A DNA stretch of 64,000 bases from Acrocarpospora corrugata (GTDB taxonomy: Bacteria; Actinomycetota; Actinomycetes; Streptosporangiales; Streptosporangiaceae): assembly GCF_009687845.1 (NCBI RefSeq), contig NZ_BLAD01000075.1:1-64000 (forward strand), written 5' to 3'. Numbering within the stretch: the first letter of the stretch is position 1; the number at the start of each line of letters is the position of its first letter. Made by a program: the position numbers and the translations under genes. Under the pieces are notes generated by a model, which was not told the DNA's origin, did not search any database, and saw only the letters and a program-made list of their open reading frames with translations. Shown here in pieces: positions 26 to 15,037 of this stretch.

Positions 26-100
26 TGATGTCGCAGTGTGATCGTATGGATTTGTAGCGTTACCGCCGATCGGCGAGATCGGATGTGCTGGGATAGCCGG

Positions 101-858
101 GTGACCGAGCGTAAGCCGTACCCGAGCGACTTATCCGACGCGGAATGGGCGTTGATCGAGCCGGTGCTCGCGGCGTGGAAGGCCGCGCACCCATCCGTCA
201 GCGGCCACCAGGGCAACTACGAGTTACGCGAGATCGTGAACGCCATCCGCTACCAGGGACGAACCGGCGTCCAATGGGACTATCTCCCGCACGACCTGCC
301 GCCCAAGAGCGCGACGTACCACTACTTTTCCAAGTGGCGCGATGACGGCACCGACCAGGCGATTCACGACCTGCTGCGCTGGCATCTGCGGGAGAGGAAG
401 GGCCGATTAGCCGATCCGAGCCTGGTGGTGCTGGACACCCAGAGCGTCCACGTCGCGGCCGGGGTCCCCGCCTCCACCACCGGACGGGACGCCGCGAAAA
501 GGGTACCGGGCGCAAGCGTGGCCTGGCCGTGGACGTGCTGGGCCTGGTCATCGCGGTCGTGGTGCTGGCCGCCTCGGCGCACGAGAACACCGCCGGGATC
601 GCCCTGCTGGGCCGGGTCGCCGCGAGCACCGAGGGCACGGTGACCAAGGCGCTGGCCGACCAGGGGTTCAAGAACGCGGTCGTCGCGCATGGCGCCGGTC
701 TGGGGATCGACGTGGAGATCGTCGAACGTAACCCCGCCGACAAGGGGTTCGTCCCCCAGCCCAAACGGTGCGTGGTCGAGCAGACCTACGGCATCTTGAT
801 GTTCCACCGGCGTCTGGTCCGCGACGTCGAGCACCTTCCGGCCAGCTCCGAATCTTCG
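101..858 (+). pseudogene. IS5-family transposase, frameshifted and 3'-truncated
   Basis: The first frame, from GTG at 101, begins KPYPSDLSDAEWALIEP and includes the VQWDYLPHDLP segment, both typical of the N-terminal part of IS5-type (IS427/IS1031-like) DDE transposases. The first catalytic Asp sits in VVLDTQSV. At about 496-501 the reading frame must move back by one base at GCGAAAAGGG to continue as GRKRGLAVDVLGL and then KRCVVEQTYGILMFHRRL, the C-terminal Y-(2)-R-(3)-E region. This is either a one-base loss or a programmed -1 shift, which some IS5 subgroups use. Homology stops after LPASSE near 858, where the frame runs into an unrelated protein, so the 3' end of the element and its right inverted repeat are gone. 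Not expected to be active. Confidence 0.85.
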
Positions 859-1272
859 GCGCGGGCGCTGGACGCCTACCAGGAGAGCCTGGCGCCGCCC
901 CGCCGCCCCGAGGCCCCCCGGTCGTACGGCCCGGTGGGCGAGGCGGCGTGGATCGGCGAGTTCTGCCTGCTCCTGCCGACGTTGCGGGAACGCGCCGAGA
1001 AGGTGGGCCTGACCAGCGAACTGGAAGGCCTGATGACCGCCGCGCAGCACGGGCACGAGGCGGGAGCGGACTTCGCCGAACTGCTGAAACGGCTGGACGA
1101 ACGGTACGGCACCGGCGACCGGGGCCTGGACGGCCTGTACGGCGGCTACCCGATCATGGACCCGGTGTACGTGTGCCCGATCGGCAGGTGCGCGCGCACG
1201 CAGACGCGGGAGACCGACGGCCCCGCGCCCCGCTGCCACGTCGGCCGCAACATGCGCATGCGCGGATCATGA
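859..1272 (+). pseudogene. C-terminal remnant of a zinc-ribbon-like protein fused to the transposase
   Basis: The frame continuing out of the transposase encodes an alpha-helical stretch of about 90 residues with PVGEAAWIGEFC and a LERR-like leucine pattern, then a short Cys-rich tail: CPIGRC, 14 residues, then CH. This spacing looks like a zinc ribbon. No start codon or ribosome site of its own is visible, so the original N-terminus was lost when the insertion sequence and an adjoining deletion created the fusion. The stop codon TGA (1270-1272) overlaps an ATG, and the next gene starts at 1276, so the remnant and its neighbour were probably one operon. I do not recognise a named family; small proteins of this shape occur in actinobacterial conflict-type operons, which is a recollection and not a search result. 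Confidence 0.5.
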
Positions 1273-1275
1273 CCG

Positions 1276-2107
1276 ATGGACGTGCTGCTCGCCCCGCACG
1301 GCAGGCGTTCGCCGGTCCCCGGCGCGCTCTGGGCGGCGACCGCCTTCGCCGGTCCCGCGCTCGGCCATTCATCCTGGTACGACGTCGGCGTGCTGATCAA
1401 GCGGGCGAACGCCCTGCCGGACCGGCCAGCCGCCGTGCTCGCCTGCGCCGCGCTGTTCCTGGTCGCGGTGGCCGTACACGGGACGGCCGCGGAGTACGCC
1501 GGGCGGCTGACGCGGGCGTGCTGGATCCGAGGACCCGGCGGCACCCTGTCGCGGCGGCTGGCCGCTGGCCGCCTGCGCCGATGGGAGGCCGCCGAACACG
1601 CCTTCCAGGGACGCGCGAGCCGGTGGCGACGACGCGGCGAAGGCGGTGGCCGCCGCCCGCCGCAACCGGATCTCCCTGTCGCGTCCCCGGCACGCCACCT
1701 GGATGGGCGACGCCATGGCCGCCCGGGAGAAACACATCCACGGCGAGTACGGCCTCGACCTGTGGGCGGCCTGGCCCCGGCTCTGGCTGACGCTCCCCTC
1801 GCGGGTCCGCGACGAAGCCCGCAAGGCGTACGCGGCCTGGCACACGGCGGGCGTGCACGGTGGCGGCGGCCTGCTCTACCTGCTGATCGCCCCGTGGTGG
1901 TGGCCCGCCCTGCTGGTCGCCGTCGCCGGGTGCGCGGCGGCCTGGTGGTCGGGCCGCGCCGCGTGGGGCGACTTCACCGACCTGGTGGAGTCCCTCGCCG
2001 ACCTGTACGGCGCCGCCCTGGCCAGGTCACTCGGCGTGCCGGTGGACACCTGGCCGGACCCCGCGATCGGCGTCGAGGTCACCGCGCGGCTGCGCAAGGG
2101 GATCTGA
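1276..2107 (+). pseudogene. Frameshifted membrane protein of unknown function
   Basis: The frame from ATG 1276 encodes a hydrophobic segment (AVLACAALFLVAVAVHG) and ends its sensible sequence near RWEAAEHAFQ at about 1608. Sensible sequence resumes one base later, in the frame that reads AAARRNRISLSRP, PTWMGD-like ATWMGDAM, YGLDLWAAWPRLWL, a second membrane segment with APWWWPALLVAVAG, and RLRKGI at the stop 2107. One extra base between about 1600 and 1622 explains the break. There is no homopolymer there, so a true mutation is at least as likely as a sequencing error. The intact protein would be about 276 residues with two membrane regions. The stop is only two bases from the convergent stop of the STAND gene. 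Function unknown. Confidence 0.6.
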
Positions 2108-2109
2108 CC

Positions 2110-4500
2110 TCACCGGCATCGGCCGAGGACCTTCTCGGTGGCGAGGGTGTGCGGGTGATCCGGGCCGAGGACCCTGGTCCGCCCGTCGAGCACGCCGGTC
2201 AGCACGGACCGCGCGCCGTCGCGGTCCTCCAGCGCGAGCAGCGCCTCGCCGAGGGAGTGGCGGATGGCCAGCGACCGGTGGTGCTCGGGCCCCTGCACCC
2301 GGACGCACACCGCGGCCAGTTCCCGCAGCCGCGCCAGGGCGGCGGCGTGCCGGCCGCGCGCCTGCTCGATCAGGGCCAGGTAGTGCCGGGTGATGAGGGT
2401 GGCGGGGAAGTCCGCGCCGAGGACCTGGGTACGGTCGCGGAGCACCTCGGTCAGCAGGTGCTCGGCCTCCGCCAGCAGGTTTCGCGCGTACAGCAGGTGG
2501 GCCAGGTTGTTCTTGCTGGTGAGGGTGTCGGTGCTGAGCGGCCCGAGCACCCGCTCGCGGGCGGCCAGGGTGGGCCGGAGCAGTTCCTCCGCCTGGTCGA
2601 GCCGGCCCTGGTCGAGCAGCAGCCGGCCCAGATAGTGCTGGGTGGTCAGGGTGTCCGGATGTTCGGGGCCCAGCACCAGCCGCCGGGCGGTGAGCGCCTC
2701 GCCGAAGCCGCGCTCCGCCTCCGCGTACCTGCCGAGGGAGGCGCGCACCTGGCTAAGGTCGTGCAGGACGGCGAGCACGTCGGGGTGGTCGGCTCCGAAC
2801 AGGCCGACGCCGATCGTCAGCAGCGAGCCGTACCGGTCGCCGGCCTCCTCGAAACGGCCCGCGTAGAGCAGGTAGCGCGCGGCCAGCGTGGCGGGGCCGA
2901 GCACGCCCGCGGACGGCTGGGGACCGGGTTCCATCAGGTCGAACGGGCTGTGGCAGTGGTCGGCCAGGGCCCGCCAGCCGGACCAGGACACCGGATTCTT
3001 GGGGTCGAGCTCGTCGGCCACGGCGGCCAGCAGAGCCGTGCTCACCGAGAGGAGTTCCGGCAGGTCGTCGCGGGCGTGCCGGCGGCAGGCGTACCGCACC
3101 AGCGGATGGATCAGCAGCAGGTCGGCGACCGCCGGGTCGGCGGCGGAGTCCCGGACGAGGTCGACCAGGCCCACCCCGGACAGGCCGAGCAGCGCCGCGC
3201 GCAACGAGCCGGTGGTCAGGCCGGCGAGCAGCGGGGACCGGGACAGGATCTCGGGCCTGAGCAGCAGCCCGTACGGCACGGCGGCCTGGCGGAAACACGC
3301 GAGCAGCCGCAGCAGCGGCCGGGCCTGCGGCAGGCCCTGGTCCGCCAGCAGGTCGAGGGAGAGCTCCCAGGTCCGGTCGATCCGCTGCCGGTGCCGGAGC
3401 CCGCCGGGTGCGTCCACGTCGAGCACGTCCTCGTCCTGCCGCAGCGCCTCACCGTACTCGGCGAAGGTGGCCGGCCCCGCGAGCCGGCCGGGCAGACCGG
3501 CGGCCTGGGCCAGATGCAGACCGGCCAGGCGCAGCGCGAGCGGCAGGCCGCCGAGCCGCTCGGCGAGCGCGTGCGCGTCCTCCGCCGAGCCCGCCTGGGG
3601 CGCCAGCTCCCGCAGCACGTCCGCGCCCTGGCCGGCGGTGAGCGGCTCGATCCGGTGCGACCTGGCCCACGAGCCGGGCCGGCCCCACGAGAAGGAATCC
3701 CGGGTGGTGACGACCACCAGGCCGAATCTGCCCTCGACCGGGCGCAGCCAGCCGGTGGCGTCGGTGACCGGCGCGCCGTTCAGGCAGAGTTCCCGGCGCG
3801 GGTCATCGGTGTCGTCGATGACCAGCAGCCACGGGGAGCGGTACTTGTTGAGCAACCGCCACAGGACGTCGGGGTGGCTGCCCGAGCGCATGACCTCCCG
3901 GCCCGCGCCGAGCTGCACCGCGAGCGCCCGCATGCCGTCGGAGACCGCGCCAGGACCGTCGGCGGCCGTCACCCACCAGGTGTGCACCTTCCGCTCAAGC
4001 GCCCAGCGCACCAGGGCGAGCGCGACCGCGCTCTTGCCGGTGCCGCCCAGGCCGTGCAGCACGTGCACCCGCGGGCCGTCCCAGTCGGCGGTCAGTCCCG
4101 CGCCGAGCAGGCGGAGCAGGTCCTGGCGGCCGACCAGGGTGGGCTCCTCGCTGAGGCGTTCCACCGGCGGCCGGGTGGAGACTATGCCGTACGAGGGCGG
4201 CTCCCGCGCCGGCTCAGCCTGCGGGAGCACGGGTTTGCCCCGCCAGAGCCGGCGCAGCAGCGCGTACCAGCGGTCGATCTCGCCGTCGCTGGTGATCCCG
4301 CAGGCTTTGAGGAGCTTCGCCAGGTTGGCCGAGGAGATCCTCGGGCGGTTCCGCGCGTTGAGATAGTCGCTCACGGTCTGCGGAGGAATGCCGGCCCGTT
4401 TGGCGAGCCCGCGCAGGGTGAGCCCCGCCTGGTCCATCAGCAGGGTCAGCGCCTGCGCGAACTCCTCGACCGTCGAGATCGCATCAGGATCCGGGCGCAT
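2110..4500 (-). CDS. XRE-type HTH / NB-ARC ATPase / TPR protein (STAND regulator)
   Basis: 796 residues. Residues 10-75 form a Cro/C1-type helix-turn-helix (LTLRGLAKRAGIPPQTVSDYLN). A P-loop, GLGGTGKS at 150-157, and a Walker B, LLVIDD at 225-230, mark an NB-ARC ATPase, followed by a GLPLAL motif (about residue 320) typical of this class. From about residue 560 to the end are kinesin-light-chain-like TPR repeats recognisable by repeated LGPEHPDTL-type motifs. Such STAND proteins hold themselves inactive until the TPR arm binds a ligand, then oligomerise. ATG at 4500 follows GAGGGGA at a good distance. It is the last gene of the five-gene operon, 30 bases after the CHAT gene, so it may be the switch or the autoregulator of the system. 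The HTH suggests DNA binding; the target is unknown. Confidence 0.9.
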   Translation of the reverse strand: MRPDPDAISTVEEFAQALTLLMDQAGLTLRGLAKRAGIPPQTVSDYLNARNRPRISSANLAKLLKACGITSDGEIDRWYALLRRLWRGKPVLPQAEPAREPPSYGIVSTRPPVERLSEEPTLVGRQDLLRLLGAGLTADWDGPRVHVLHGLGGTGKSAVALALVRWALERKVHTWWVTAADGPGAVSDGMRALAVQLGAGREVMRSGSHPDVLWRLLNKYRSPWLLVIDDTDDPRRELCLNGAPVTDATGWLRPVEGRFGLVVVTTRDSFSWGRPGSWARSHRIEPLTAGQGADVLRELAPQAGSAEDAHALAERLGGLPLALRLAGLHLAQAAGLPGRLAGPATFAEYGEALRQDEDVLDVDAPGGLRHRQRIDRTWELSLDLLADQGLPQARPLLRLLACFRQAAVPYGLLLRPEILSRSPLLAGLTTGSLRAALLGLSGVGLVDLVRDSAADPAVADLLLIHPLVRYACRRHARDDLPELLSVSTALLAAVADELDPKNPVSWSGWRALADHCHSPFDLMEPGPQPSAGVLGPATLAARYLLYAGRFEEAGDRYGSLLTIGVGLFGADHPDVLAVLHDLSQVRASLGRYAEAERGFGEALTARRLVLGPEHPDTLTTQHYLGRLLLDQGRLDQAEELLRPTLAARERVLGPLSTDTLTSKNNLAHLLYARNLLAEAEHLLTEVLRDRTQVLGADFPATLITRHYLALIEQARGRHAAALARLRELAAVCVRVQGPEHHRSLAIRHSLGEALLALEDRDGARSVLTGVLDGRTRVLGPDHPHTLATEKVLGRCR

Positions 4501-4512
4501 CCCAAAGTCCCC

Positions 4513-4539
4513 TCATGGTCCTCATGGTCCTCATGGTCC
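4513..4539 (-). repeat. Three tandem copies of a 9-bp unit between the CHAT and STAND genes
   Basis: TCATGGTCC occurs three times without interruption (4513-4521, 4522-4530, 4531-4539). On the coding strand each unit contains ATGA. The first-read unit supplies the CHAT stop codon, and the other two add further in-frame TGA codons. The GAGG of the last copy runs into the ribosome site of the STAND gene. Confidence 0.9.
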
Positions 4540-7500
4540 AAAGTGCACGTAGGGAGCCCAGATGAAGGGCCTCTTCCGGTGAGCCGCGCGCAGCTGGAGC
4601 ACGGCTTCGTGCAAAGCGTGGGCGGCCCGGGAGGCGTCGAATCCGCCGTCCGCCAGCACCGTGTACATCGGCTCGCTCAGTTCGAGACTGGCCAGGTCGC
4701 CGACCGGCCAGAGCGACCCGGTCACGTGCCGGAACCCCGCCTGCTGCAGCGCCGCCGTGAGGTGCAGCGATTCGTCCGGAAGGGCGTATCCGCCGGCAGC
4801 GGTACGGCAGGCGCTCAGAAACGCGAACTCCGCGTTCTTCAGGCGCAGCCCCGCGATCTCCGGCATCCGCACCTGCCCATCGGCGAGGTACAGCGCGCCG
4901 TCGGAGGGGTTCCACGGGTCCTGCCCGCCATGACAGGCCAGATGAACCCAGGCGTGGCGGGGCAGTTCGGCCAGCAGCCCCGCCCGGGTGGCGTCCGCGT
5001 TCAGCAGCGTCGTGCCTGGAACCTTCGCCGCCACTTCGGACGCCTCCCGCACCGCGTAGACCAGCGGCGGGGTTCCCGGGCTCTTTCGGACTCCGACGCA
5101 GAGCAGCCGCCGGAACTCCGGGGCGGGCCGCGCCGCCTTCGCGGCACGCGTCAGCGCGGTCAGGGTGGTGGTGTAGGACGGCACGGTGCGGTCGAGCACA
5201 CTGTCGTGGTCGTCGCCCGCCGCGTGCAGGGGCAGGAAGGCGAGCGGGCCGGTGGGGCACCACCAGACCCGTTCGCGGCCGGCCGAGGTGACGCCGAGCG
5301 CGGACAGGCAGGGTTCGGCGATGTCCCGCCAGAGTTCGTCGAGGAGCGGCCACCTGCCGGTGTCCAGCCTTCCATTCGCTTGTTCCAGATAGGTGAGGTG
5401 GTCGTTCGCCAGGGTGAGGATCCGGTCGTAGGTGATGGGCAGGGGCAGCGAGCTCACCTCGCCGTCGCGCACCAGCATGGCGTCGCAGCGGATCGTGCTC
5501 ACGTTGAGGACGATCACCGGTCCTGGCACGCGGGCGAACTCCGCGAACGGCGCCGGCCGCAGGAAGGTGTCGAAGCCGGGCAGCGCCTGGACCTCGGCGA
5601 TCGTCGTCTCCCACTCGCGGGCGTCGGCGATGCGCCGATCCGTGTCCGCGCCGTTCACGGCCGCCGAATCCAGGCCGGCGTGTAGTCGCTGGAGCCGGGC
5701 GGCCAAGTCGGGGGCCTTCGCTTTGAGCGCCGTGAGGTCCGTCCGGATGTCCAGCTGCTGGGACCAGAGCACGGATCTGCCCTGTTCCAGCAGTTCGAGG
5801 GCTCGTTGAAGGTCACCGTGCGCGATGGCGCAGGCGGCGGCGTCGGTGGCCAGACCGTTCCAGCTGCTGAGCTGGCGTTCCCTGGTGGCCTGGCTCAGGC
5901 CGCGCCACACCACTTCGGGCAGCAGCTCCATCGCCTTCTCGAAGTGGCCGGAGGCGGCGCGGAGGTCGCCGGATCGCACCAGATCCTCGCCGAGCAACCG
6001 CCGGGCGTAAGCCCGGATCAGCGGCGGGGTCACCGTGCTGCCGGCCGCTTCCAGCCACTTGTCGCGCGCTTCCTGCTCCCACGCCGGGTTCAGCTGGACG
6101 GCCCTGCGGCGGGGCAGGTCGAGCACGTTGCCCAGGTGCAGCAGGTATTGCCCCCGGTCGGGGTGGGTCTCGGCGGTGGCGCCGACCATGCGCCTCGCCT
6201 GTTCCCTGGCGGCCTCCAGATGCGCTTGGCGGCCGGAGAACTCGTACTGGGTGAGCAGCGCGTGGTGGAGGGTCTGTTCCACGACGTGCGGGCTCGGGTG
6301 GTCGCCGGGGGTGGCGTCCCTGATCGTGTATGCGGCGTTGCGGGCCGCGTACGCGGCGTTGACGGCGGTGGGGAGATCCCGTTCCGCCGCGTGGCGGTAG
6401 CGGGTCAGGTGGGCCTGGCTGAGTCCGGTCAGGCAGCGCATCCGGTCCGGGTGGTCGTGTGGCGTGATGTCGACCGCCGCACGCTGCCGGGTGATCGCCT
6501 CGTCGATGTCGGCGACGTTCGCGGTTATGCGGAAACGTCTGGTGAGGTCGGTGCCCAGGTTGGAGAGCAGCCCGGCGCGTTCGTGCGGGGGCAGTCCTTC
6601 CGTGGGGGGAGCCTGCGTCTTGAGTTGTGCGATCAGTTCGGCGGGCAGGCCCGCTGCCTCCAGGTGGTCGACGATCGGTTCCATCACGTCGGTCAGGCCG
6701 GCGGGCTGTTCTGCGAGCGAGTCGAGGGCTTCCCGGCCGAAGGTGATCGCCTCGTCGAGGTCGGCGAGGTCGCCGTACCGCTCGAATCTGGTGGACAGGG
6801 CCGTGGCCAGGCTGCCGAGACAGCTCAGCCGCTCCTGGCCGAGTTCGCCACCGGCGACCGCCGCGCGACCGGCCGCGATGGCGTCGTCCAGGTCGGCGAG
6901 CGCTCCGGTTTCCTCGAACCTGCGGATCAGGGAGGTGGCCAGGTCCCGCTGGAGCTCGGCCTGACCGCGCGGATCCGTGGCGGATGCTTTGGCGATTGCT
7001 CTCCGGTGCCAGTCGATGGCGGTCGTGAGGTCGTCCGCCCGGCCCAGCCGGGACGCGCGCTCGGAGAGCGTGGCCGCGTACGCGCCCATGCGCCGTGGGT
7101 CGTCGAGCAGGTCCGCGTCACGTAGCCGCTCATACTCGCGGATCGCCGCCTTGAGGTCTTCGAGGTGGCGGCCGTAGCGCTGATAGCGCTGCATGAACAG
7201 GGCCGCCAGGTTGGCGGGGTAACCTTCGGCCCACGGCTGCCGCCCGAAAGCCATCTCGACGAGCCTGGCCCAGCAGCGGATGGCGCCGTCCAAGGCTGTC
7301 GCGTCGTTCTCGATCCAGTCCACGCGCAGGTAGGCGACACCGGCGCTGCTCAGCACCAGGCCCTGGAATTCGGGATCGGTACCGACGAAGTCCGGGCGCT
7401 CGATCATGCTCTCCCATGCGGCGGCGGCGTCGATCGCCCCGGGCCAGCCGTGGAGCCCGGTCTTGGCCCGCTCGTCAGCTGCCACCGCGTTGTCCCACAA

Positions 7501-8184
7501 CTCGTGGAAGTGTCCGGGGGTTTCCGGTGGGCGGGACGCCGTCGCTTCGGAGTGTTTTTCGGGTTCGCCGCGGAGGCGCGCGAGCAGGGCCACCAGGTCG
7601 CGCAGATGAGCTGGTTCCTCGGGGCGGCCCATCCTGGCCGCCAGGTCCGCGGTTTCCGTCAGGTGGACACCGGCCATGGGGTCGTCCAGCAGCCGGGGAT
7701 TCGCCTTGATCAGCTGCTCGGCGGCGGCCAGGGTGGGGGTGTCTGCCAGACGCTCCAGCAGGGTGACCATCTCCAGGATGCGACGGGCCGACCCCAGGGG
7801 TTCGTCTTCCGAGTACTCGGCCGCGATGGCTTCGCCGGCGTCGTGGTCGTCTTCCAGGTCCTCGGCCGCGATGGCTTCGCCGTGGTCGAGTTCACGGACT
7901 ATCTCCACCAGAGTGGCGGGGCTCGACGGCCAGGATTCGGGGTGCCCGGCCCGGCTTCGCGCGCAGAGTTCCAGGAAGCGGCGGTGCCTCGCCAGCTGGC
8001 TGAGTCCGTTGGCGGGTCCGAACTGCTGGATGAACGGGACCATGACGTCGAGGACGAAGAGCGCGTCCTCGTGCAGCAGTTCCTCCGGGTGCCGGGCCAC
8101 GAGTTCGAACGACTCGCCCCACGAATCGGCTTCGAGCAGGCGCATGACCAGGACGGTCAGGGCTTCCGCGGCGGAGCGTCCCAT
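4531..8184 (-). CDS. TPR-CHAT protein (caspase-like CHAT protease)
   Basis: About 1217 residues. The C-terminal 380 residues are a CHAT domain of the caspase/separase fold with the catalytic pair His in HLACHG (about residue 1085) and Cys in LSACRT (about 1126), both intact. The N-terminal 800 residues are helical repeats of TPR type, with a recurring pattern of DAI(A/T)xxRxAV and REAL. A 45-nt internal duplication lies near residues 100-130. I chose ATG 8184, which shares its A with the M48 stop codon (TGATG), over GTG 8196, which would sit one base from GGGAG. CHAT proteases act as executioners in several bacterial defence systems, including the CRISPR-linked Craspase; here the partner proteins are a metalloprotease and a STAND ATPase. 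The substrate is unknown. No membrane segment was seen, so it acts in the cytoplasm. Confidence 0.9.
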   Translation of the reverse strand: MGRSAAEALTVLVMRLLEADSWGESFELVARHPEELLHEDALFVLDVMVPFIQQFGPANGLSQLARHRRFLELCARSRAGHPESWPSSPATLVEIVRELDHGEAIAAEDLEDDHDAGEAIAAEYSEDEPLGSARRILEMVTLLERLADTPTLAAAEQLIKANPRLLDDPMAGVHLTETADLAARMGRPEEPAHLRDLVALLARLRGEPEKHSEATASRPPETPGHFHELWDNAVAADERAKTGLHGWPGAIDAAAAWESMIERPDFVGTDPEFQGLVLSSAGVAYLRVDWIENDATALDGAIRCWARLVEMAFGRQPWAEGYPANLAALFMQRYQRYGRHLEDLKAAIREYERLRDADLLDDPRRMGAYAATLSERASRLGRADDLTTAIDWHRRAIAKASATDPRGQAELQRDLATSLIRRFEETGALADLDDAIAAGRAAVAGGELGQERLSCLGSLATALSTRFERYGDLADLDEAITFGREALDSLAEQPAGLTDVMEPIVDHLEAAGLPAELIAQLKTQAPPTEGLPPHERAGLLSNLGTDLTRRFRITANVADIDEAITRQRAAVDITPHDHPDRMRCLTGLSQAHLTRYRHAAERDLPTAVNAAYAARNAAYTIRDATPGDHPSPHVVEQTLHHALLTQYEFSGRQAHLEAAREQARRMVGATAETHPDRGQYLLHLGNVLDLPRRRAVQLNPAWEQEARDKWLEAAGSTVTPPLIRAYARRLLGEDLVRSGDLRAASGHFEKAMELLPEVVWRGLSQATRERQLSSWNGLATDAAACAIAHGDLQRALELLEQGRSVLWSQQLDIRTDLTALKAKAPDLAARLQRLHAGLDSAAVNGADTDRRIADAREWETTIAEVQALPGFDTFLRPAPFAEFARVPGPVIVLNVSTIRCDAMLVRDGEVSSLPLPITYDRILTLANDHLTYLEQANGRLDTGRWPLLDELWRDIAEPCLSALGVTSAGRERVWWCPTGPLAFLPLHAAGDDHDSVLDRTVPSYTTTLTALTRAAKAARPAPEFRRLLCVGVRKSPGTPPLVYAVREASEVAAKVPGTTLLNADATRAGLLAELPRHAWVHLACHGGQDPWNPSDGALYLADGQVRMPEIAGLRLKNAEFAFLSACRTAAGGYALPDESLHLTAALQQAGFRHVTGSLWPVGDLASLELSEPMYTVLADGGFDASRAAHALHEAVLQLRAAHRKRPFIWAPYVHFGP
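7816..7881 (-). repeat. 45-nt tandem duplication inside the CHAT gene
   Basis: A 21-base block coding GEAIAAE is repeated exactly at 7816-7836 and 7861-7881. The remaining 24 bases of the 45-base unit have drifted (DLEDDHDA against YSEDEPLG). The repeat lengthens an acidic stretch between helical repeats near residues 103-130 and keeps the frame. Confidence 0.85.
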
Positions 8185-10118
8185 CAGATCCAGCACTCCC
8201 AGGAGTCGGGGTTGTGGTAGTCGGCCATCCGGTCGATGGCGGCCGGTTCGTCATGTCGCCGACGGCAGACGTCGATGACGGATATGCCGGTCTCGGTGCC
8301 GTCGGTGGTACGGCAACGCCAGCCGTACGCGTGGTCGGCGACGAGGGTCGCGTCCTCCGCTCCCCCGGCCTGGCAGTGGGCGTCGAAGTCGGCGGAGTCC
8401 AGGACGCCGAGGCGGCGGGTGACCTGCCAGCACTCCCAGGATTCGGGGTCGGCGTAGTTGAGTGCTTTGTCCAGGGCGTTCTCGTCGCCGTACAGCTGTT
8501 TGCAGGCGTCGGTGACCGAGAGGGGGCGGCCGTCGCAGCGCCAGCCGTAAACGTTGTTCTCTTCGAGGGTGGCGTCGCCGGCGCCCAGGAGGCGGCAGTA
8601 CGCGTCGAAGTCGACGCCGCCCAGCCGGACAGGTGCTGCGGCGGGCGGGTCGGGAGCCGGTTCTTGGGTCGGTTCAGCGGTCGGTTCTGGGGTCGTGGAT
8701 GGCGTGGGGGAAGGGTCGGCGGATCGGCCGGTCGCGGGTGGGGTCGGGGTTTCCGGGTCCGTCTCCGGGTCCGTCGTGGGCGAAGGGGGCTTGGAAGGTG
8801 ATTTATCCGGCTTGTTCAGCTTATTTGGGGATTTGGTGGAGGGTTCGGCGGGAGGTTCCGCAGGTGGCTCAGCCGACGTGGTGGCAGGTTCGGGTGGCGG
8901 TTCGGCGAGGCCGGGTGTTTCCGGTGGCATCGTCGCGAGGTCGGTGGCCGGATCCGGGGCCAAGTCGTCGTCGGCGGCCACGGGGGAGCCCGCCTGCGCG
9001 ATGGTCGTCCCGTACGACACCTGGGGCCTGGAACCGATCGCGGTGTACCCCGCCACGCCGCTGCCTGCGATGACCAGCGCCAACGTCACGAAACCCGCGA
9101 CCAGGACCGGGATTCTGTCGCGGAACGGCTCGCCGCCCGTCGTGTACCCGAGCAGACGCTCGATGCGGCGGCTCGTGCTCGGATGGGTGGAGAGCAGTTC
9201 GGCGAGCCCGCCCCCGGACACCGCCCGCGCGATGGCGCGTTCCTGCGCCAGCCAGCGCCCCCGGACCAGGGTCGTCGGCTCCCCCTCGATCCGCTCCAAG
9301 GCGGCGCAGAGAGCCTCGGGTCTCCCGGTGACGTACGCCGCCACCGCGTCCGCCGCGAACTCCCGATGCCGGCACAGCGCCATCAGGATCGCGTGGTTGA
9401 CGACCAGCACGATCTTGCCGGCCTTGCGGATCGCGGGCGCGACGAACCTGGCGATGACGGCGCAGGACAGCCGCAGCGGACCGACGATGGGCCCTGACCT
9501 GTTCGTGGTCGCCGCCAGGAACCCCAGGCAGACGATTCGCAGGGCTTCGGCGTAGAACGTCAGCAGGGTGTAGACCCAGCGGTTCCACATCATGGCGCCC
9601 ACCAGCACGCTCGCCATCCAGGAGTCGCCGTTGGCGTGATGGGCGAGTTCGTGCGCGATGACGGCTTCCAGCTCGTCGGGGTCGTCGTGGTAGAGGGCGA
9701 GCAGCCGTACGGACAGGCAGATGTGGGCCCGGCCCCCGGACCCGATCGCCACCGCGTTCACGCCGTTGTCCATGATCCTGACCCGGGGCGGCGCGATCCG
9801 GAACTCCGCCGCCATCCGGTTCACGATCGCCTGCAGCGCCTCCCGCCGTTCCGGGTCGTGCACCTCGCCGAAGCGCCACAACGTCAGCGAGTCGTTCGAC
9901 AGCCCGCAGATCACCATGACGGCGACGAGCACGCCCCCGGCCGCCAGCCCCGCGGCGACATCGCGCGCGGACGCCGCGACGATGGTGGCGACAGCGGCGA
10001 CGGCGGCCAGGAGAACCAGTCCGAGCACGCCCATGAGCAGCCGGTTGCGTACCCGCTGGCGTTTGACGAGGCCGAGTCCGGCTCGGTGACTCTCGGGGGA
10101 TCCGGCTGGGGGCAGCAT
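8184..10118 (-). CDS. M48-family membrane metalloprotease with two C-terminal Cys modules
   Basis: 644 residues. Two membrane segments (about 28-50 and 55-72) precede an HtpX/Ste24-type M48 domain with the zinc motif HELAH at 156-160 and a later glutamate region (CRHREFAADA). A third membrane segment lies near residues 355-375. It is followed by a Pro/Thr/Glu-rich linker of about 110 residues and two homologous modules of about 65 residues, each with four cysteines in the order YC, WRC, C and WECW. The start ATG 10118 has AAGGAG five bases upstream; a longer reading frame to 10169 has no ribosome site. M48 enzymes cleave membrane or misfolded proteins on the cytoplasmic face, while the Cys modules should lie outside. 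Modules of this look occur on other actinobacterial surface proteins, from memory. It overlaps the CHAT start, so the two are translationally coupled. Confidence 0.88.
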   Translation of the reverse strand: MLPPAGSPESHRAGLGLVKRQRVRNRLLMGVLGLVLLAAVAAVATIVAASARDVAAGLAAGGVLVAVMVICGLSNDSLTLWRFGEVHDPERREALQAIVNRMAAEFRIAPPRVRIMDNGVNAVAIGSGGRAHICLSVRLLALYHDDPDELEAVIAHELAHHANGDSWMASVLVGAMMWNRWVYTLLTFYAEALRIVCLGFLAATTNRSGPIVGPLRLSCAVIARFVAPAIRKAGKIVLVVNHAILMALCRHREFAADAVAAYVTGRPEALCAALERIEGEPTTLVRGRWLAQERAIARAVSGGGLAELLSTHPSTSRRIERLLGYTTGGEPFRDRIPVLVAGFVTLALVIAGSGVAGYTAIGSRPQVSYGTTIAQAGSPVAADDDLAPDPATDLATMPPETPGLAEPPPEPATTSAEPPAEPPAEPSTKSPNKLNKPDKSPSKPPSPTTDPETDPETPTPPATGRSADPSPTPSTTPEPTAEPTQEPAPDPPAAAPVRLGGVDFDAYCRLLGAGDATLEENNVYGWRCDGRPLSVTDACKQLYGDENALDKALNYADPESWECWQVTRRLGVLDSADFDAHCQAGGAEDATLVADHAYGWRCRTTDGTETGISVIDVCRRRHDEPAAIDRMADYHNPDSWECWI

Positions 10119-10221
10119 GGAAGCTCCTTCAGGCGGCGGCGCCCCGAACCGGTACCAGCAGGCTAGCAAGCAGCCAAATGAGTAGCCAGCGGGTTACCGC
10201 CAGTGTTCTGGAAATGTCGCA

Positions 10222-11850
10222 TCACGTGTCGGTTTGCACGACCTTGGATCGTTCCGTGGGGGATGCCGTCGTGACGGCCATGACCAGGGCCGCAGCCGCC
10301 GCGACGACCGCCCCGGCGATCGGAAGCCATTTCGCCTGGTTGGGCATGCCCGGCACAGAACCGGGCCGGGGCAGCGGGGGGTCCAGCGGGATGATCCGCG
10401 AACCCTCTCCGGGACGCAGCGGCGGCACCACGCGGGAAACCACGGGCCGGCTCGGCGGAGGGACCGGCCTCGCCGACTCGATCGCCTCCATGCCGAACGC
10501 CTGCGTGGTCGCCGTAGGCTCCGTCACCCCGTGCAGCGCGGCCTGGAGTTCCTGCGCCTCCTCCCGCGCCTGCCTCAGCTCCGCCGCGAGCGACGGAAGC
10601 CCGAGCCGGGCGGTCTCCAGGGTCTTGCTGCCTTCGGTGTACGTCGTCATCGCGTGGACGACGATGTTCTCCGGTCTGATGGGCATCTCGTCCAGGCCCA
10701 GTTGCACCATCGCCCAGGTCATGCCCTGCCGGTAGCGCCGGAGCACCCACTGCCGGTCCTCCTCGGCGTGCACGGCCGCCAGGTCGGCGGCGTCGACGTG
10801 CCTGGTCGCCTGCCCGGCGAGCGTGGTCGCCCGCTGAACCGACGCCTCCAGCCGCGCCCCGAGCTTCGCCAGGCCCGCCCGCCCGTCGCGCAGCCGGTTT
10901 CCGAGATCGTTGCCGCGCGTGAGCAGGATGGTCAGCACGGCGAAGACCGCGCAGACGATGAGTCCCGCCGCCAGCCCGAAGATCGCCGCCTCGGCCACGG
11001 ATCTGCCCGCCGAGCGGACCATGGACGCCACCCGGCCCCCGATCAGCAGGGTGTTGATCAGCGTGACCGTGAGGACGAAACCGAAGGCGAGCCGGGTCAG
11101 GCGGTCGGCGGCCTTGATCTGGGCCAGGATGGCCTCCGCCCGGCTGCGCGCCGCCACGTCCAGGCCGGTGTCACGATGGTCGCGGTTGTGGTCCCGCAGC
11201 GCCGACCGCGCGTCCCGGCTCGACCGCTCGCGCGTCCGGTACGCCTCCAGGCTGAAGTCCATCGCGACCGTCCAGAGCAACGCCAGGCAGGCGGCGGCGC
11301 CCCACTGCACCAGGGACGCGAGTGAGTCCAGCGGCCCGAGGTTGAAGATGAGCTCCCAGTAGAGGGCCACGTCGACGATGGCCGTCGCGCCCGCGACGAC
11401 GATCACCCAGCGGCGGCGCAGCGGCTTGTTCGTGTGCTGGTCGTCGCTTTCCTGCGCACGCTTGGCCGCCAGCCGGACGCTGGCCCGATAGTTGTGGACG
11501 GCGTCGCGGATGGTCGCCCGCTGCTGGAGCGCGGCGCCCGCCTCGGTCGTCTTCTCGACCGCGCACCGAGCTTCATGGAACAGGCCGTTGTCGTGGCGTT
11601 TCGCCACTTCCATAGCCTCATCCTGGAGGCGCTCCAGCGCGTCTTCGAACGCCTTGCGCTGCCTGGCCTCGGCGCGCGGCCCCGTCTCCTCACGCTGGGA
11701 GCCGGTGATGGCCACGCCGACACCCAGGATGTCCTCGGGTGGCAGCACCTCCCCCCTGGGCAGGGCCTCGATCGGAATCGCCTTGCCGGCCAGCTGCCGC
11801 GTCGAGCAGTAGGGACAGCTTCCGTGGTGATCCGCCAGTTCGCCGGACAT
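10222..11850 (-). CDS. Multi-pass membrane protein with N-terminal CPYC knuckle, function unknown
   Basis: 542 residues, no recognised family. The N-terminus has HHGSCPYC, half of a treble-clef-like zinc site. A helical, charged segment (about 60-145) comes before two membrane spans (about 150-170 and 180-203). A cytoplasmic loop then leads to a second pair of spans (about 255-278 and 288-313), a long coiled-coil-like region, a Pro-rich stretch (about 460-500), and a final span near 512-530. GGGGGAGG three bases before ATG 11850 is a very strong ribosome site. It lies 13 bases downstream of the lipoprotein gene and 103 bases upstream of the M48 gene in the same operon. By topology it could be the transmembrane link between the outer-face OmpA lipoprotein and the cytoplasmic proteases; this is inference only. 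Confidence 0.75.
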   Translation of the reverse strand: MSGELADHHGSCPYCSTRQLAGKAIPIEALPRGEVLPPEDILGVGVAITGSQREETGPRAEARQRKAFEDALERLQDEAMEVAKRHDNGLFHEARCAVEKTTEAGAALQQRATIRDAVHNYRASVRLAAKRAQESDDQHTNKPLRRRWVIVVAGATAIVDVALYWELIFNLGPLDSLASLVQWGAAACLALLWTVAMDFSLEAYRTRERSSRDARSALRDHNRDHRDTGLDVAARSRAEAILAQIKAADRLTRLAFGFVLTVTLINTLLIGGRVASMVRSAGRSVAEAAIFGLAAGLIVCAVFAVLTILLTRGNDLGNRLRDGRAGLAKLGARLEASVQRATTLAGQATRHVDAADLAAVHAEEDRQWVLRRYRQGMTWAMVQLGLDEMPIRPENIVVHAMTTYTEGSKTLETARLGLPSLAAELRQAREEAQELQAALHGVTEPTATTQAFGMEAIESARPVPPPSRPVVSRVVPPLRPGEGSRIIPLDPPLPRPGSVPGMPNQAKWLPIAGAVVAAAAALVMAVTTASPTERSKVVQTDT

Positions 11851-11863
11851 GATCCTCCCCCTG

Positions 11864-13045
11864 TCACGTGGTCTCAGGCGCGGTGATCTTCACCACGACG
11901 ACACGCTGCGCCCGGTCCTGCGCGGGCTTCCCCGGCGTGCCCTTGACGTCCCAGCCCTTTCCGTCCGCCCGGACGAACTCGGGCGGCACGCCGGCGTCGA
12001 CGAGCAGGTCCCTGATCACCTCGGCCCGGCGTTTGGACAGGGCGCGGGCGCCGGCCGGGTTGTCGCCGAACTTGGCGCAGAACCCGGTGACGGTCATGAC
12101 CGAGCCCGCCGGCGCTTCGAGGTACTGGCCGGCGATCTGGGCAGCCTTCGACTCGACCGCCGCCGGGTCGATGAGCACGGCCTCGTCTGGCCGGAAGTAC
12201 GCCGCGTCGATCCTCCCCACGCGCGGAGGGTCGGGCGTGGGGGTCGGCTCCGGTTCGATCTGGACGATCGGCGGGACGGCGGACGGATCGGCCCAGGGCG
12301 CCGCCCGCTCCCGATCGCGCACAGGTTCGCTCACCCGTGCGCCCAGAGCCTGGCCGAGCCCGACGATGAACTTCTCGCGCCACACCTCGCTCGCGACGCC
12401 CAGCGGCTCCTGCCCGGACCCGCCCGGAGTGAGCAGCACCGGATGAAGATCGACTCCAGACAGGTCGACCTCGCTGATGTCGGTCTTCATCACCTCCTGA
12501 ACCGCCGCTTCCGGATCCCCCGCCGTCAGTACCGACATATCGAGGGGCGCCACGGTAGCCGTCAGAACGGCAGTCGCGAGTGTCACATCCGCGCGGCCGC
12601 CCTTCGAAATGTCCTCGGCCGCCTGCAGGGCCGCGTAGAGGTCGAACCCGATACTTCCGACCTGCGCTTTCGCGATCGCCTCCGACAGGTCGGTGAGCCG
12701 ATCATCGACCCCGATGGCGCGCAGCGGCGGGCTGTGCTCCTCCTGATCCGTCCCTGCTCGCGTGATACGCAGGTCGATGAAACCCACCTCACTCGCCGTA
12801 CGCCCCACCGCGAAGACCCTCAGCGTCCCGGCCCCCTTCTCCGCGAGCGCCTTCGCCTTACCCCTCATGTCCTTGGGAATGACCCCTGCCACCCGATCGG
12901 TCTTCTCAGCGATCAGAACGATCTCGCTGACGCCCTTGGCTGGTTCACTGTCGGCTTCCGTCGATTCGCCGCCACACGCGGCCGCCAGCGACGCCAAGAC
13001 GACCAGCGCCTTCACTCGACCGGGAATGAAACGACTACTTCCCAT
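11864..13045 (-). CDS. Lipoprotein with vWA-like region and C-terminal OmpA domain
   Basis: 393 residues. A signal peptide ends in the lipobox LAAAC (Cys 24), so the protein is lipid-anchored on the outer face of the membrane. Residues about 40-235 look like a degenerate von Willebrand A/Rossmann-type domain; the segment with APLDM and the DLHPVLLTPGG strand resembles domains seen in other actinobacterial OmpA proteins. Residues about 265-390 are an OmpA-like peptidoglycan-binding domain (TVTGFCAKFGD, then LSKRRAEVIRDLL). GGGGGAGG lies nine bases before ATG 13045. It is the first gene of the operon that runs to the STAND ATPase and is the natural candidate for the envelope-sensing component. 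The Cys inside the OmpA domain is unusual. Confidence 0.85.
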   Translation of the reverse strand: MGSSRFIPGRVKALVVLASLAAACGGESTEADSEPAKGVSEIVLIAEKTDRVAGVIPKDMRGKAKALAEKGAGTLRVFAVGRTASEVGFIDLRITRAGTDQEEHSPPLRAIGVDDRLTDLSEAIAKAQVGSIGFDLYAALQAAEDISKGGRADVTLATAVLTATVAPLDMSVLTAGDPEAAVQEVMKTDISEVDLSGVDLHPVLLTPGGSGQEPLGVASEVWREKFIVGLGQALGARVSEPVRDRERAAPWADPSAVPPIVQIEPEPTPTPDPPRVGRIDAAYFRPDEAVLIDPAAVESKAAQIAGQYLEAPAGSVMTVTGFCAKFGDNPAGARALSKRRAEVIRDLLVDAGVPPEFVRADGKGWDVKGTPGKPAQDRAQRVVVVKITAPETT

Positions 13046-13194
13046 CTGGCCTGACCTCCCCCTGTACGGGCATCAAGCCAACGCCAGACCAGCCCACCCA
13101 ATCCATAGATGACTCTGTATCCGTACAAAGTCGGACATGGACATAAATCTTTGGTCAGCTCTGCTTGAGAGGGATCGGCCCATCCCGGGCAAGG

Positions 13195-14233
13195 TCAGTC
13201 TTTCGGTACGCCGCCGTAGTGGGCGATCAGGGCGCTTGCCTCGCGGAGGATCTCGGCCTGGCGCTGGAGGCGGCGGCGGGAGGCGGCCACCCGGATGACG
13301 AAGAAGGCGACGACGAGGAGAACGAGCTGTGGCCATGGCAGTGCCCAGAGTGTGGTGTCGATCGTCACTCGTTCGGCGACGACGCTCGGGGGGTGATTCA
13401 CCGACGAGTGCGGGGATCGCGACGACTTTCGTGGTGATCGAACCCATCGGCCAGACGCCGGTCACCCGTGCGGTGAACTCGCGGCTGCCGCCCGGCATGA
13501 TCTCCCTGGTCTTGGCTTCGGAGGTGTCGTCCCAGCCGCTCTCCCCCGCCAGCGCGGACGTGCGGATCTGCGCGTCCGGGGCCACCCGGACGTTGCCGGC
13601 GTTGGCCACGGTGTAGGTCACGTCGATGGAGCCCGCGGCGAAGGGGTTCCATGAGCCGGTGTATTCGGCCCGCAGGTCGGTCACGGCGAGTTTGGCCGCG
13701 TAGTCGCCGGTCACGCGGAGGTTCACCCGGACGCCCACCCGGTTCTGGACCCGGACCTGTTCGAAGATCGTTTCCACGGACGCGGTGACACCCGCGGGGT
13801 GGTCCCCCGGCGTCGCGTTCTGCGGCACCGTGACCTTGACCGGCACGACGGCGGTGGCGCCGGCGGGAATGGTCACCTTGCCGGGAACCTTGATCCATGC
13901 TCCGCCGTCGGTCGGCGTGGCGTCCGAGGGCCGCATGTCGAACAGTCCCTTGGCGGTCAGGTAGCCGTCGTTGGCGTCGATCGCGAAGACGACCTCCTTG
14001 GTGGAGCGGTTGATGACCGCGACATGCTCGGTCGCCTCCTGCCCACCGGCCAGTTCGAGATCGATCACGCTGCGGCCGTCGGGGCCGTTGGCGTCGGCAG
14101 GCGCGACCGACCAGGTGACGTCGCTGCGGCCTGCGGCGCCGGCCGGGCCGGCGAATCCGACCAGGGTGGTCGCGCCGACAGCGCACAGGAGCGCGAGGAG
14201 GGCAGGTGCCCTGCGCGGACTGCTCATGGCCAA
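13195..14233 (-). pseudogene. DUF916 surface protein, frameshifted at a G6 tract
   Basis: The first 280 codons give a signal peptide (LLALLCAVGATTLVGFAGPAGA), then a DUF916-type domain of WxL-associated proteins (DVTWSVAPAD, EHVAVINRS, VPVKVTVPQNATPGDH) and a second Ig-like domain with VTYTVANAGNVRV. At the run of six G on the plus strand (13388-13393) the frame is lost. Dropping one base restores GESPPSVVAERV, a membrane helix (LVLLVVAFFVIRVAA) and the stop at 13195, exactly the C-terminal anchor expected for the family. As written, translation would continue to a stop at 13073 without an anchor. AGGAG sits nine bases before TTG 14233 and 15 before ATG 14227, favouring TTG. Could be a sequencing error, a real lesion, or a phase-variable tract. 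Confidence 0.75.
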
Positions 14234-14304
14234 CGGAGGTGTCTCCTGTCTGATCGTGAACGTTCCCGGACGGAACCTGCGGCAGGGGCGTTCGGCCCCT
14301 GGGC

Positions 14305-14928
14305 TCAGGACTGGTTGAACAGCGAGAGCGTCAGCGTCGAGTGGTACTCCCCGGCCGCGACGTCGACCGGAGTCCGCAGCGCGAGATTGGCGTTGACCTG
14401 GTGAGTGCCGATCTCCTCAGCCGAGTCCGCGATCGAAACCAGCAGCTCCTGGCCCTGCAGACCCACCGCGGGCGCTCCACTGCCGTCGGAGACGACACTG
14501 GAAACCGGCTCACCCGGCGCCACCAACCCCGTCGTCGAACCGGTCAGCAGATGCGGAGCCCAGCCCAGGTACTCCGGACCGATCGTCTTGGCCGGGTCAC
14601 CGGTCGCCGCGAACTGGCTCGACTGACCCACCACCGCCCAGAAGTCCCCCGCGGGGATCTCGTCCGGGAGACGGGTGTCGGTCACCGTGACCGTCGGCAG
14701 CGTACCGGTGAACTGACGAGCGGCGGCGTTGGATCCGTTCTCCGTCAGAGTCACGCCACTGTTGTCGGCCACCGTCATCGACACCTGACCGGGAACACGC
14801 AGAGGCTCGATCGTCACCGACACCTCAACACCGTTGGTGTCGGGGTCATCGGCCGCCATCGCGGGACCGGCCACACCGGCAATCGCGAGAGCCAGCACCG
14901 ACGCAGCGAGAATCCTGTTTCTTTTCAT
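14305..14928 (-). CDS. Secreted WxL-like beta-rich protein
   Basis: 207 residues. A clear Sec signal peptide (ILAASVLALAIAGVAGPAMA) is followed by a beta-rich domain with paired motifs TLPTVTVTDTR and, at the C-terminus, YHSTLTLSLF, the pattern of WxL-type surface proteins in actinobacteria, where the Trp-x-Leu signature may be relaxed (a WAPHLL segment is present). TGGAG lies seven bases before ATG 14928; the upstream extension to 14991 has no ribosome site. It lies between the LVIVD-repeat gene and the DUF916 gene on the same strand, about 70 bases before the latter. In Firmicutes, DUF916 and WxL proteins work as a pair on the cell wall, and the same pairing is kept here. There is no membrane anchor of its own. 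Confidence 0.75.
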   Translation of the reverse strand: MKRNRILAASVLALAIAGVAGPAMAADDPDTNGVEVSVTIEPLRVPGQVSMTVADNSGVTLTENGSNAAARQFTGTLPTVTVTDTRLPDEIPAGDFWAVVGQSSQFAATGDPAKTIGPEYLGWAPHLLTGSTTGLVAPGEPVSSVVSDGSGAPAVGLQGQELLVSIADSAEEIGTHQVNANLALRTPVDVAAGEYHSTLTLSLFNQS

Positions 14929-15037
14929 ATGGTTACTCCACTTATGGGGGGCAGGGCCGGCCAGCCTGTCGGCCGACCGGCCCCGGTTCAACTAAGCGGC
15001 GTCTTCGGCGCGTACGCCGTGGCTACCGCCGGTCCGG

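Follow-up and report, generated by a model that had tools for sequence, protein, structure and literature searches.

A candidate modular, envelope-linked conflict system built around a TPR-CHAT protease in Acrocarpospora corrugata

We describe a cluster of five genes at the beginning of contig C75 (NZ_BLAD01000075.1) from the 9.27-Mb genome of the actinobacterium Acrocarpospora corrugata. The stretch analysed comprised bases 1-64000 of this contig (64,000 bases, hereafter the window). The cluster encodes an OmpA-domain envelope protein, a multi-pass membrane protein with a CPYC motif (CPYC protein), an M48 metalloprotease, a TPR-CHAT protease, and an XRE-NB-ARC-TPR protein of the STAND class. 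Four of these genes recur in a diverged locus on contig C39 of the same genome, a short sequence element lies upstream of both OmpA genes, and CHAT relatives in other genomes and on plasmids recur with genes for a ribbon-like protein and a membrane protein that also adjoin the cluster. We interpret the cluster as a modular, envelope-linked conflict system that probably acts through regulated cell death and that forms a composite, specific to this lineage, with a mobile CHAT module at its centre, a reading to which we assign a probability of roughly 0.45. The features of the window are as follows.

11864-13045, minus strand: OmpA-domain envelope protein of 393 amino acids (Pfam OmpA), with an N-terminal signal or lipobox-like segment and a middle domain without a family
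10222-11850, minus strand: CPYC protein of 542 amino acids, with an N-terminal CPxC motif and five hydrophobic segments
8184-10118, minus strand: M48 membrane metalloprotease (Pfam M48), start taken as the ATG at 10118, with a Pro-rich linker and two C-terminal Cys repeats
4531-8196, minus strand: TPR-CHAT caspase-like protease (Pfam CHAT; His and Cys motifs), 1221 amino acids from the GTG at 8196 (or from the ATG at 8184)
2110-4500, minus strand: protein of 796 amino acids with an XRE-type helix-turn-helix, an NB-ARC-like STAND NTPase and TPRs (Pfam HTH_31 and TPR_10; STAND motifs)
13118-13133, minus strand: common element CGACTTTGTACGGATA upstream of the OmpA gene, with two exact matches genome-wide
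1276-2107, plus strand: frameshifted gene for a CHAT-associated membrane protein ('x8340' family), its start in frame 1 and the remainder in frame 2
856-1272, plus strand: tail of a kinase-like/ribbon protein (TCAD9-like) that matches an intact C39 protein, with a CPIGRC Cys motif at 1174-1257
38-855, plus strand: IS4/5-family transposase remnant before the ribbon-protein tail (Pfam DUF4096 for 38-643)

A first-pass annotation of this DNA, made from its letters, had described five intact genes on one strand with preserved catalytic motifs, and the order and gaps found here agree with it. The minus strand carries all five open reading frames (ORFs), each strongly biased towards coding, in the order OmpA protein, CPYC protein, M48, TPR-CHAT and XRE-NB-ARC-TPR (from 13045 to 2110). 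Gaps of 13 bases between the OmpA and CPYC genes and of 103 bases between the CPYC gene and the M48 start at 10118, which is preceded by AAGGAG, are followed by an overlap of the M48 stop with the CHAT start (TGATG at 8184, or GTG at 8196) and by 30 bases from the CHAT stop to the XRE-NB-ARC-TPR gene. A nine-base unit, GGACCATGA, is directly repeated at 4501-4534, with the repeats running from the stop of CHAT into the space ahead of the STAND gene. Because the contig begins at window base 1, the locus is cut on that side.

The TPR-CHAT protein belongs to the CHAT family (PF12770, 147.8 bits, cut-off 24), with intact His (HLACHGG, 4924-4944) and Cys (LSACRTA, 4798-4818) motifs, and the M48 protein to Peptidase_M48 (PF01435, 80.1 bits, cut-off 20.3), with HELAHH at 9636-9653 and EFAAD at 9348-9362. 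The XRE-STAND protein matches HTH_31 (40.8 bits, cut-off 27) and TPR_10 (135.7 bits, cut-off 27.5); its NB-ARC score (PF00931, 15.5 bits) is under the cut-off of 23.5, and GLGGTGKS (the P-loop), LLVIDD and GLPLAL are present by pattern. Membership in the TPR proteins of FxSxx-COOH systems was rejected for this protein (NF040586, 239.3 bits, and 250.4 bits for the C39 copy, against a cut-off of 300). The first protein had been called OmpA/vWA-like. Its OmpA part is confirmed (Pfam, 35.4 bits, cut-off 27.2), but its vWA-like part is not, as no vWA model was among its Pfam matches at E 0.1 and a single-sequence AlphaFold model, with a predicted local distance difference test (pLDDT) score of <50 over residues 1-271, was too poor for a fold search.

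The locus on contig C39 is diverged from that in the window, with identities of 49% for the OmpA protein, 28-37% for the CPYC protein, 39-43% for CHAT and 57-59% for the STAND protein. Its genes fall into three blocks (plus coordinates of L009). The first, on the minus strand, encodes a kinase-TM-beta-propeller protein (TM, transmembrane), a PP2C phosphatase, a vWA protein, the CPYC protein and the OmpA protein; the second, on the plus strand, encodes a kinase-like protein, which resembles TCAD9 weakly and has a ribbon-like Cys motif at its C-terminus, and the membrane protein 'x8340'; and the third, on the minus strand, encodes the XRE-STAND-TPR and TPR-CHAT proteins. The vWA (34.1 bits, cut-off 23.8; DVSPS present) and PP2C_2 (80.4 bits, cut-off 24) domains score above their cut-offs and the kinase domain below (16.7 bits, cut-off 23.1), and one hydrophobic segment (349-367) separates the kinase part from the propeller. 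The C39 STAND copy scores 19.9 bits for NB-ARC, 27.3 for NACHT (cut-off 26.7) and 21.7 for HTH_31, against a cut-off of 27. The C39 locus yielded no M48 relative, and no relatives of the C39 vWA, PP2C and kinase-like genes were found among the predicted genes of the window.

These observations bear on the suggestion that the five genes form one fixed unit, which must be given up: M48 is missing from the C39 locus, the genes there lie in three blocks of differing strand, and no other genome examined holds the OmpA/CPYC pair. The link among the OmpA, CPYC, CHAT and XRE-NB-ARC-TPR genes is retained because these four reunite in a diverged locus, with a common upstream element and with CHAT proteins that are sisters. 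In a tree of 20 sequences, comprising the four CHAT proteins of this genome and 16 from 15 of the 18 CHAT regions fetched from other genomes (L090, L091 and L095 were left out, their CHAT genes having been missed or split in gene prediction), the window and C39 proteins group together with support of 100/96, and the CHAT protein of L094 is weakly next (81/62).

The common element, TATCCGTACAAAGTCG, is 16 bp long and lies upstream of both OmpA genes at a similar spacing from the start codon. When up to two mismatches were allowed, the whole genome held only these two sites, both exact; a control in which the pattern was read backwards likewise gave two matches within the same tolerance. The C39 element forms part of a perfect palindrome (CCGTAC-N6-GTACGG), of which the window copy has one arm degenerate. 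At 3 mismatches, the loose palindrome was not clearly commoner than in shuffled sequence (39 vs 43.9 in the window; 13 vs 10.0 in L009). The XRE domain of the STAND protein would be a natural candidate to bind the element.

It could be argued that the five genes are chance neighbours in a region worn by insertion sequences (ISs), with CHAT-STAND and OmpA-CPYC as separate cassettes and the window copy in decay. Consistent with such a scenario, two of the four CHAT copies in this genome (E<=1e-80), on contigs C67 and C69, lack such partners within the 18 kb retrieved around each, the ribbon and membrane genes of the window are broken, and a gap of 103 bases separates the CPYC and M48 genes. Yet six gene families are common to both loci (28-59% identity), their CHAT proteins are sisters, the upstream element occurs at these two loci only, and neither the reading frames nor the catalytic motifs of the five genes are disrupted. 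We consider chance association improbable.

The first-pass annotation had also noted an IS and conflict-gene debris beside the cluster. Both are real, but the debris proved to be part of the same system, namely the ribbon and membrane genes, which are broken in the window and intact in C39. The IS is represented at 38-643 by part of a transposase (Pfam DUF4096, 83.7 bits), and we read 643-855, which is without a Pfam match, as its probable continuation in another frame. The ribbon tail shares 39% identity over 142 amino acids with residues 399-537 of the intact C39 protein. The membrane gene matches its intact C39 counterpart in tblastn searches over 1285-1596 (31%, E 0.004) and 1658-2101 (49%, E 1.6e-33), and a hidden Markov model (HMM) of the membrane protein matches window 1511-2104 at E 1.1e-65, part of this stretch being in the training set. 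The window copy may once have had the same convergent pair beside its STAND gene and since lost it, or the breaks may reflect sequencing errors. Because these two genes are broken, the window copy may be decaying, or it may work with the C39 pair in trans.

Relatives of the CHAT protein (E<=1e-80) were present in 14 of 150 genomes of the family, including that of A. corrugata. All 18 CHAT loci outside its own genome were fetched, and HMMs of the membrane and ribbon proteins were run on six-frame translations of each. Both genes lie next to CHAT in five of the 18 (L054, L055, L084, L093 and L094) and are the commonest CHAT neighbours found. Four of the five positive loci had contributed to the HMM training set; L094, which had not, matched the membrane model at E 3.9e-59 and the ribbon model at E 1.5e-11. 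In L055 (11373-15609), the ribbon and membrane genes are divergent from CHAT and accompanied by a Ser/Thr kinase that matches the PADLOC mad6 and PD-T4-6 kinase models.

Plasmids were then approached from the membrane protein. The L093 membrane protein was compared to 72,556 plasmid records and matched 13 records in 14 places (Streptomyces, 9; Embleya, 2; Rhodococcus, 1; Nostoc, 1), of which the best place per record was fetched (13 of 14 places). Among these 13 loci, selected by the membrane protein alone, CHAT is encoded in 10 and the ribbon protein in 10; in the other three, the position of the ribbon gene is taken by a small gene of 124, 126 or 132 codons. A plasmid of Nostoc sp. C052 (L110, 6284-12392) carries the membrane relative and the 126-codon gene ahead of a 'caspase family protein' with the P-loop GEFGTGKT, and no CHAT, which suggests that the protease of these sets may be exchangeable. 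Two Streptomyces plasmids (L105 and L106) have no CHAT but carry the membrane relative and a ribbon match, next to an SDR-type and a polyketide gene.

TPR-CHAT with a multi-pass membrane protein, mostly with the ribbon protein, thus occurs in several actinobacterial genera, on plasmids (L099-L104, L107-L109 and L111) and in the five loci named above. Gene order varies among the sets (divergent, CHAT first or CHAT last), and some plasmid sets lie near transposases. Because the order varies, the link is unlikely to be the accident of one operon. In its 16 full-length members, the membrane protein carries between two and four hydrophobic segments, with four in 3 of them. Across 17 sequences, W100, T159, W184 and L266 (L093 numbering) are invariant wherever they are aligned; this set excluded L108, whose frame was problematic, as well as L106 and L109. 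No Pfam model scored above its cut-off for the membrane protein (three loci), the ribbon protein (one locus) or the C39 kinase-like protein, no NCBIfam model did so for six membrane and two ribbon proteins, and PADLOC gave none for the C39 pair.

We tentatively propose, at odds clearly short of even, that a TPR-CHAT protease (or caspase), a small ribbon-like protein and a multi-pass membrane protein constitute an undescribed mobile execution module in which the protease would unleash a membrane-damaging partner. In A. corrugata this module would be wired to the OmpA/CPYC pair and to a DNA-binding STAND protein, with a plug-in slot for a TM signalling enzyme (a metalloprotease, or a kinase, phosphatase and vWA protein).

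An alternative is that the cluster is an envelope-stress regulator without a role in defence, in which the XRE-STAND protein controls transcription of its own locus, M48 performs HtpX-type quality control, the OmpA/CPYC pair is a wall-side sensor, and CHAT trims regulators during stress or development. The XRE-type domain in both copies and the common element before both OmpA genes fit this alternative, as do the matches of M48 to HtpX models (below their cut-offs) and the lack of a strong PADLOC match. However, CHAT-ribbon-membrane sets are patchily distributed; plasmids of Streptomyces, Embleya and Rhodococcus carry them too, in some cases close to transposases. Unlike housekeeping stress genes, moreover, the envelope proteins were missing from the searched relatives. 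We regard a pure stress regulator as rather unlikely.

The preferred reading, an envelope-linked conflict system, includes a membrane signalling enzyme, and the two loci differ in this respect. The M48 protein has hydrophobic segments at residues 48-66, 71-89, 202-220 and 355-373 (numbered from the TTG at 10169), from which we infer that its zinc site is cytosolic and its Cys repeats are outside the cell. The two repeats (8184-8624) are 45% identical to each other, have no Pfam family and gave no plasmid match by tblastn at E 1e-5. An assignment of the protein to the HtpX equivalogs was rejected (best NCBIfam score 100.7 bits, cut-off 341). Relatives at E<=1e-20 were found in 18 of the 150 family genomes, including its own, with open frames of 306-404 codons outside that genome. 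Because the hydrophobic segments of M48 and of the C39 kinase imply such layouts, both loci may fill one slot with an enzyme inside and a domain outside. The signalling enzyme may be exchangeable, with M48 and its outside Cys repeats in the window, and a kinase whose beta-propeller would lie outside, together with PP2C and vWA proteins, in C39. As judged from the two diverged loci, the core would comprise CHAT and the XRE-STAND switch, the OmpA and CPYC proteins, and the ribbon and membrane proteins.

A mechanism can be put forward in which each signalling step, and the outcome, including a suicide or anti-invader function, is deduced from domain content. Envelope disturbance would be registered by the OmpA/CPYC pair and by the outside domain of M48. 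The cytosolic M48 domain would clip the CHAT protein or the STAND switch, and the STAND protein would assemble on its TPRs or release its promoter. Membrane failure would follow once the CHAT protease had cut its probable substrate, the ribbon or membrane partner. If this is correct, one death protease would be tied to the envelope by two interchangeable routes, proteolytic and phosphorylation-based, within a single bacterial genome. The recurrent, apparently unnamed CHAT-ribbon-membrane set would also supply defined candidate substrates, making it directly testable what bacterial CHAT proteases cut.

The envelope pair is the part least represented elsewhere. The window OmpA protein looks like a lipoprotein, based on an N-terminal LAAAC that we take to be lipobox-like. 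Its C39 copy, provided that the chosen ATG is the start, has a hydrophobic anchor and no Cys at the lipobox position. The best Pfam match of the CPYC protein is below threshold (TcpQ, 14.5 bits, cut-off 27), and neither PADLOC nor NCBIfam gave a match at E 0.1. The C39 copy retains the CPxC motif but lacks about 50 residues that include one hydrophobic segment, and has three segments as compared to five. Contig scans with the OmpA and CPYC alignments yielded 200 and 146 pattern matches, none of which was confirmed; with two short peptide patterns each, these scans were weak.

A further possibility is that the OmpA/CPYC pair works as an ion-driven sensor of the Zorya or MotAB kind, and that the enzyme it triggers is the CHAT protease in place of a nuclease. 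The part list is similar in that a multi-pass protein with long non-membrane stretches is encoded with an OmpA-type domain protein, and the C39 OmpA copy seems to be anchored by one hydrophobic segment, like ZorB and MotB. These similarities are countered by the lipoprotein-like window protein, by the loss of the Asp of the GxTD motif, by the shortened C39 CPYC protein with its three segments, and by the lack of any PADLOC model for either protein at E 0.1, on which grounds membership in Zorya was rejected. We consider an ion-driven sensor very improbable. In the available text of PMC11890865, Zorya defence needs both a peptidoglycan-binding domain and a cytoplasmic extension, and Zorya (ZorA/ZorB) is thought to sense envelope disturbance; it resembles the present pair in that a multi-pass membrane protein is encoded alongside one with an OmpA-type domain, whereas the executioner here would be a protease.

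Several observations weigh against a conflict system linked to the envelope. Both the GxTD Asp and the RRA Arg have roles in peptidoglycan-binding OmpA domains. In four of four printed alignments to solved OmpA-type domains, Ala324 of the window protein replaces the Asp (the Arg is retained), and GFCA is likewise found in the C39 copy, which weakens the earlier proposal that the OmpA part reads peptidoglycan. The C39 OmpA and CPYC genes each have a frameshift near the 3' end, and the ribbon and membrane genes are broken in the window. Full-length relatives of the OmpA protein were found only in its own genome (1 of 150 family, 1 of 5 genus and 1 of 396 phylum genomes), as were relatives of the CPYC protein (1 of 150 family genomes and 1 of 297 genomes), so that the link of this pair to CHAT comes from two loci of one genome. 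A STAND relative was detected in none of the 18 CHAT regions (predicted genes, E 1e-5) and in none of the 13 plasmid loci, and 13 of the 18 CHAT loci are without the ribbon-membrane pair, with a weak membrane match in L056 (E 0.005). No part is a recognised toxin, and PADLOC gave no match to the CHAT protein and only weak matches to the STAND (E 0.0016) and M48 (E 0.018) proteins.

Other searches with the individual proteins were likewise restricted in their yield. The 18 CHAT regions held no relative of the OmpA, CPYC, M48 or STAND protein (blastp, predicted genes, E 1e-5), and the 13 plasmid loci none at E<=1e-5. No plasmid match was obtained by tblastn with the OmpA protein (E 1e-5) or the STAND protein (E 1e-60), and a PDB search with the CHAT protein (E 0.01) returned none. 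Four STAND matches were found in other genomes at E<=1e-100, all beginning at residue 107-108 and without the XRE part. Other, unassigned P-loop genes lie in 10 of the 18 CHAT regions, one of them (L090) with a GLPLA-like motif, and other STAND-type neighbours of CHAT may therefore exist. Large P-loop proteins in L094 (3097-6096, GPGGQGKT) and L084 (11873-14890, GEAGIGKT), some kb from the CHAT-ribbon-membrane sets, may be other STAND-type genes.

Matches to the OmpA domain only were found in one further family genome (of 150) and in two other genus genomes (of 5). Of the four other genomes of the genus, two (G079 and G127) have a layout that resembles this one but is distinct, encoding a four-segment membrane protein, an OmpA lipoprotein, an ABC transporter and an HTH-nSTAND1-WD40 protein. 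In the block common to these two sister species (L057, 6025-16116; L081, 7664-16222), the ABC transporter has a weak match to Yop-YscD_cpl (FHA-like). The OmpA domains of the window and sister-species lipoproteins align (85.5%) and the remainder is not alignable; the CPYC and four-segment proteins were judged not to be homologous (hhalign probability, 0.6%). These comparisons suggest that an envelope and STAND theme recurs in the genus and that the genes themselves do not.

Searches of open-licence literature aimed at the set returned no title or abstract describing it. The available text of PMC7159879 (Kaur et al. 2020) treats regulated peptidase/STAND conflict systems in multicellular bacteria, with OmpA domains in the iSTAND subset and EACC1 systems prevalent in actinobacteria. 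Its MoxR-vWA ternary and EACC1-caspase systems resemble the present loci in combining a peptidase, an NTPase switch and membrane or wall parts as exchangeable modules, and, as far as that text describes them, the regulated peptidase/NTPase conflict systems of multicellular bacteria are the nearest kind (PMC7159879). Membership in the MoxR-vWA ternary systems was rejected, since a six-frame P-loop scan (of the window and of C39 225000-257000 and 255000-270000) gave the two STAND genes and ABC-type GPNGAGKT/S only, although a divergent MoxR could escape a motif scan. Membership in the EACC1-caspase systems was also rejected, as Pfam, which we take to hold EACC1 and EAD models, gave no match to either, including with the ribbon and membrane proteins. 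CHAT here lies at the C-terminus of a TPR protein, whereas EACC1 systems have a single-TM partner with an N-terminal caspase domain.

Other known systems share fewer parts. Csx29 of Craspase likewise joins TPRs to a C-terminal CHAT domain with His and Cys motifs, but the Csx29 model scored 23.5 bits (cut-off 300), and no CRISPR gene was present among the neighbours put to Pfam, which was run on part of the window's other genes, all left of 31.8 kb. BlaR1 couples a sensor outside the cell to a metalloprotease inside. The M48 protein resembles such sensor metalloproteases in having an inside zinc-protease domain joined by hydrophobic segments to an extra C-terminal domain predicted to lie outside; it differs in family (M48, with M56 at 13.7 bits, cut-off 31) and in an outer domain made of two Cys repeats. 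The TerY-P triad comprises a vWA protein, PP2C and a kinase with a zinc ribbon in the available text of PMC11090510; the C39 locus similarly has vWA, PP2C and kinase-like genes in a row, but its kinase-like protein has a hydrophobic segment and a beta-propeller and no zinc ribbon. OmpA domains were counted in 14 metacaspase operons (PMC3501461, in the text available). The available portion of PMC10907252 describes STAND and CHAT proteins diversified by diversity-generating retroelements (DGRs), with CHAT and STAND domains in such systems, and not the set described here.

Three neighbouring regions may be mentioned in addition. Upstream of the window OmpA gene (13073-14991) lie a protein with WxLIP_PGBD/NPCBM similarity and a second ORF, perhaps cell-surface genes. 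An ABC-type P-loop stretch and a permease-like gene (L082, 13226-15457) adjoin the kinase end of the C39 locus. Lastly, another CHAT gene of this genome (L011, 2-13560) lies near genes for a TPR protein of 1585 amino acids, an HSP70 that carries a double zinc ribbon, and a fusion of a BTAD protein with a ThsA-type Macro domain.

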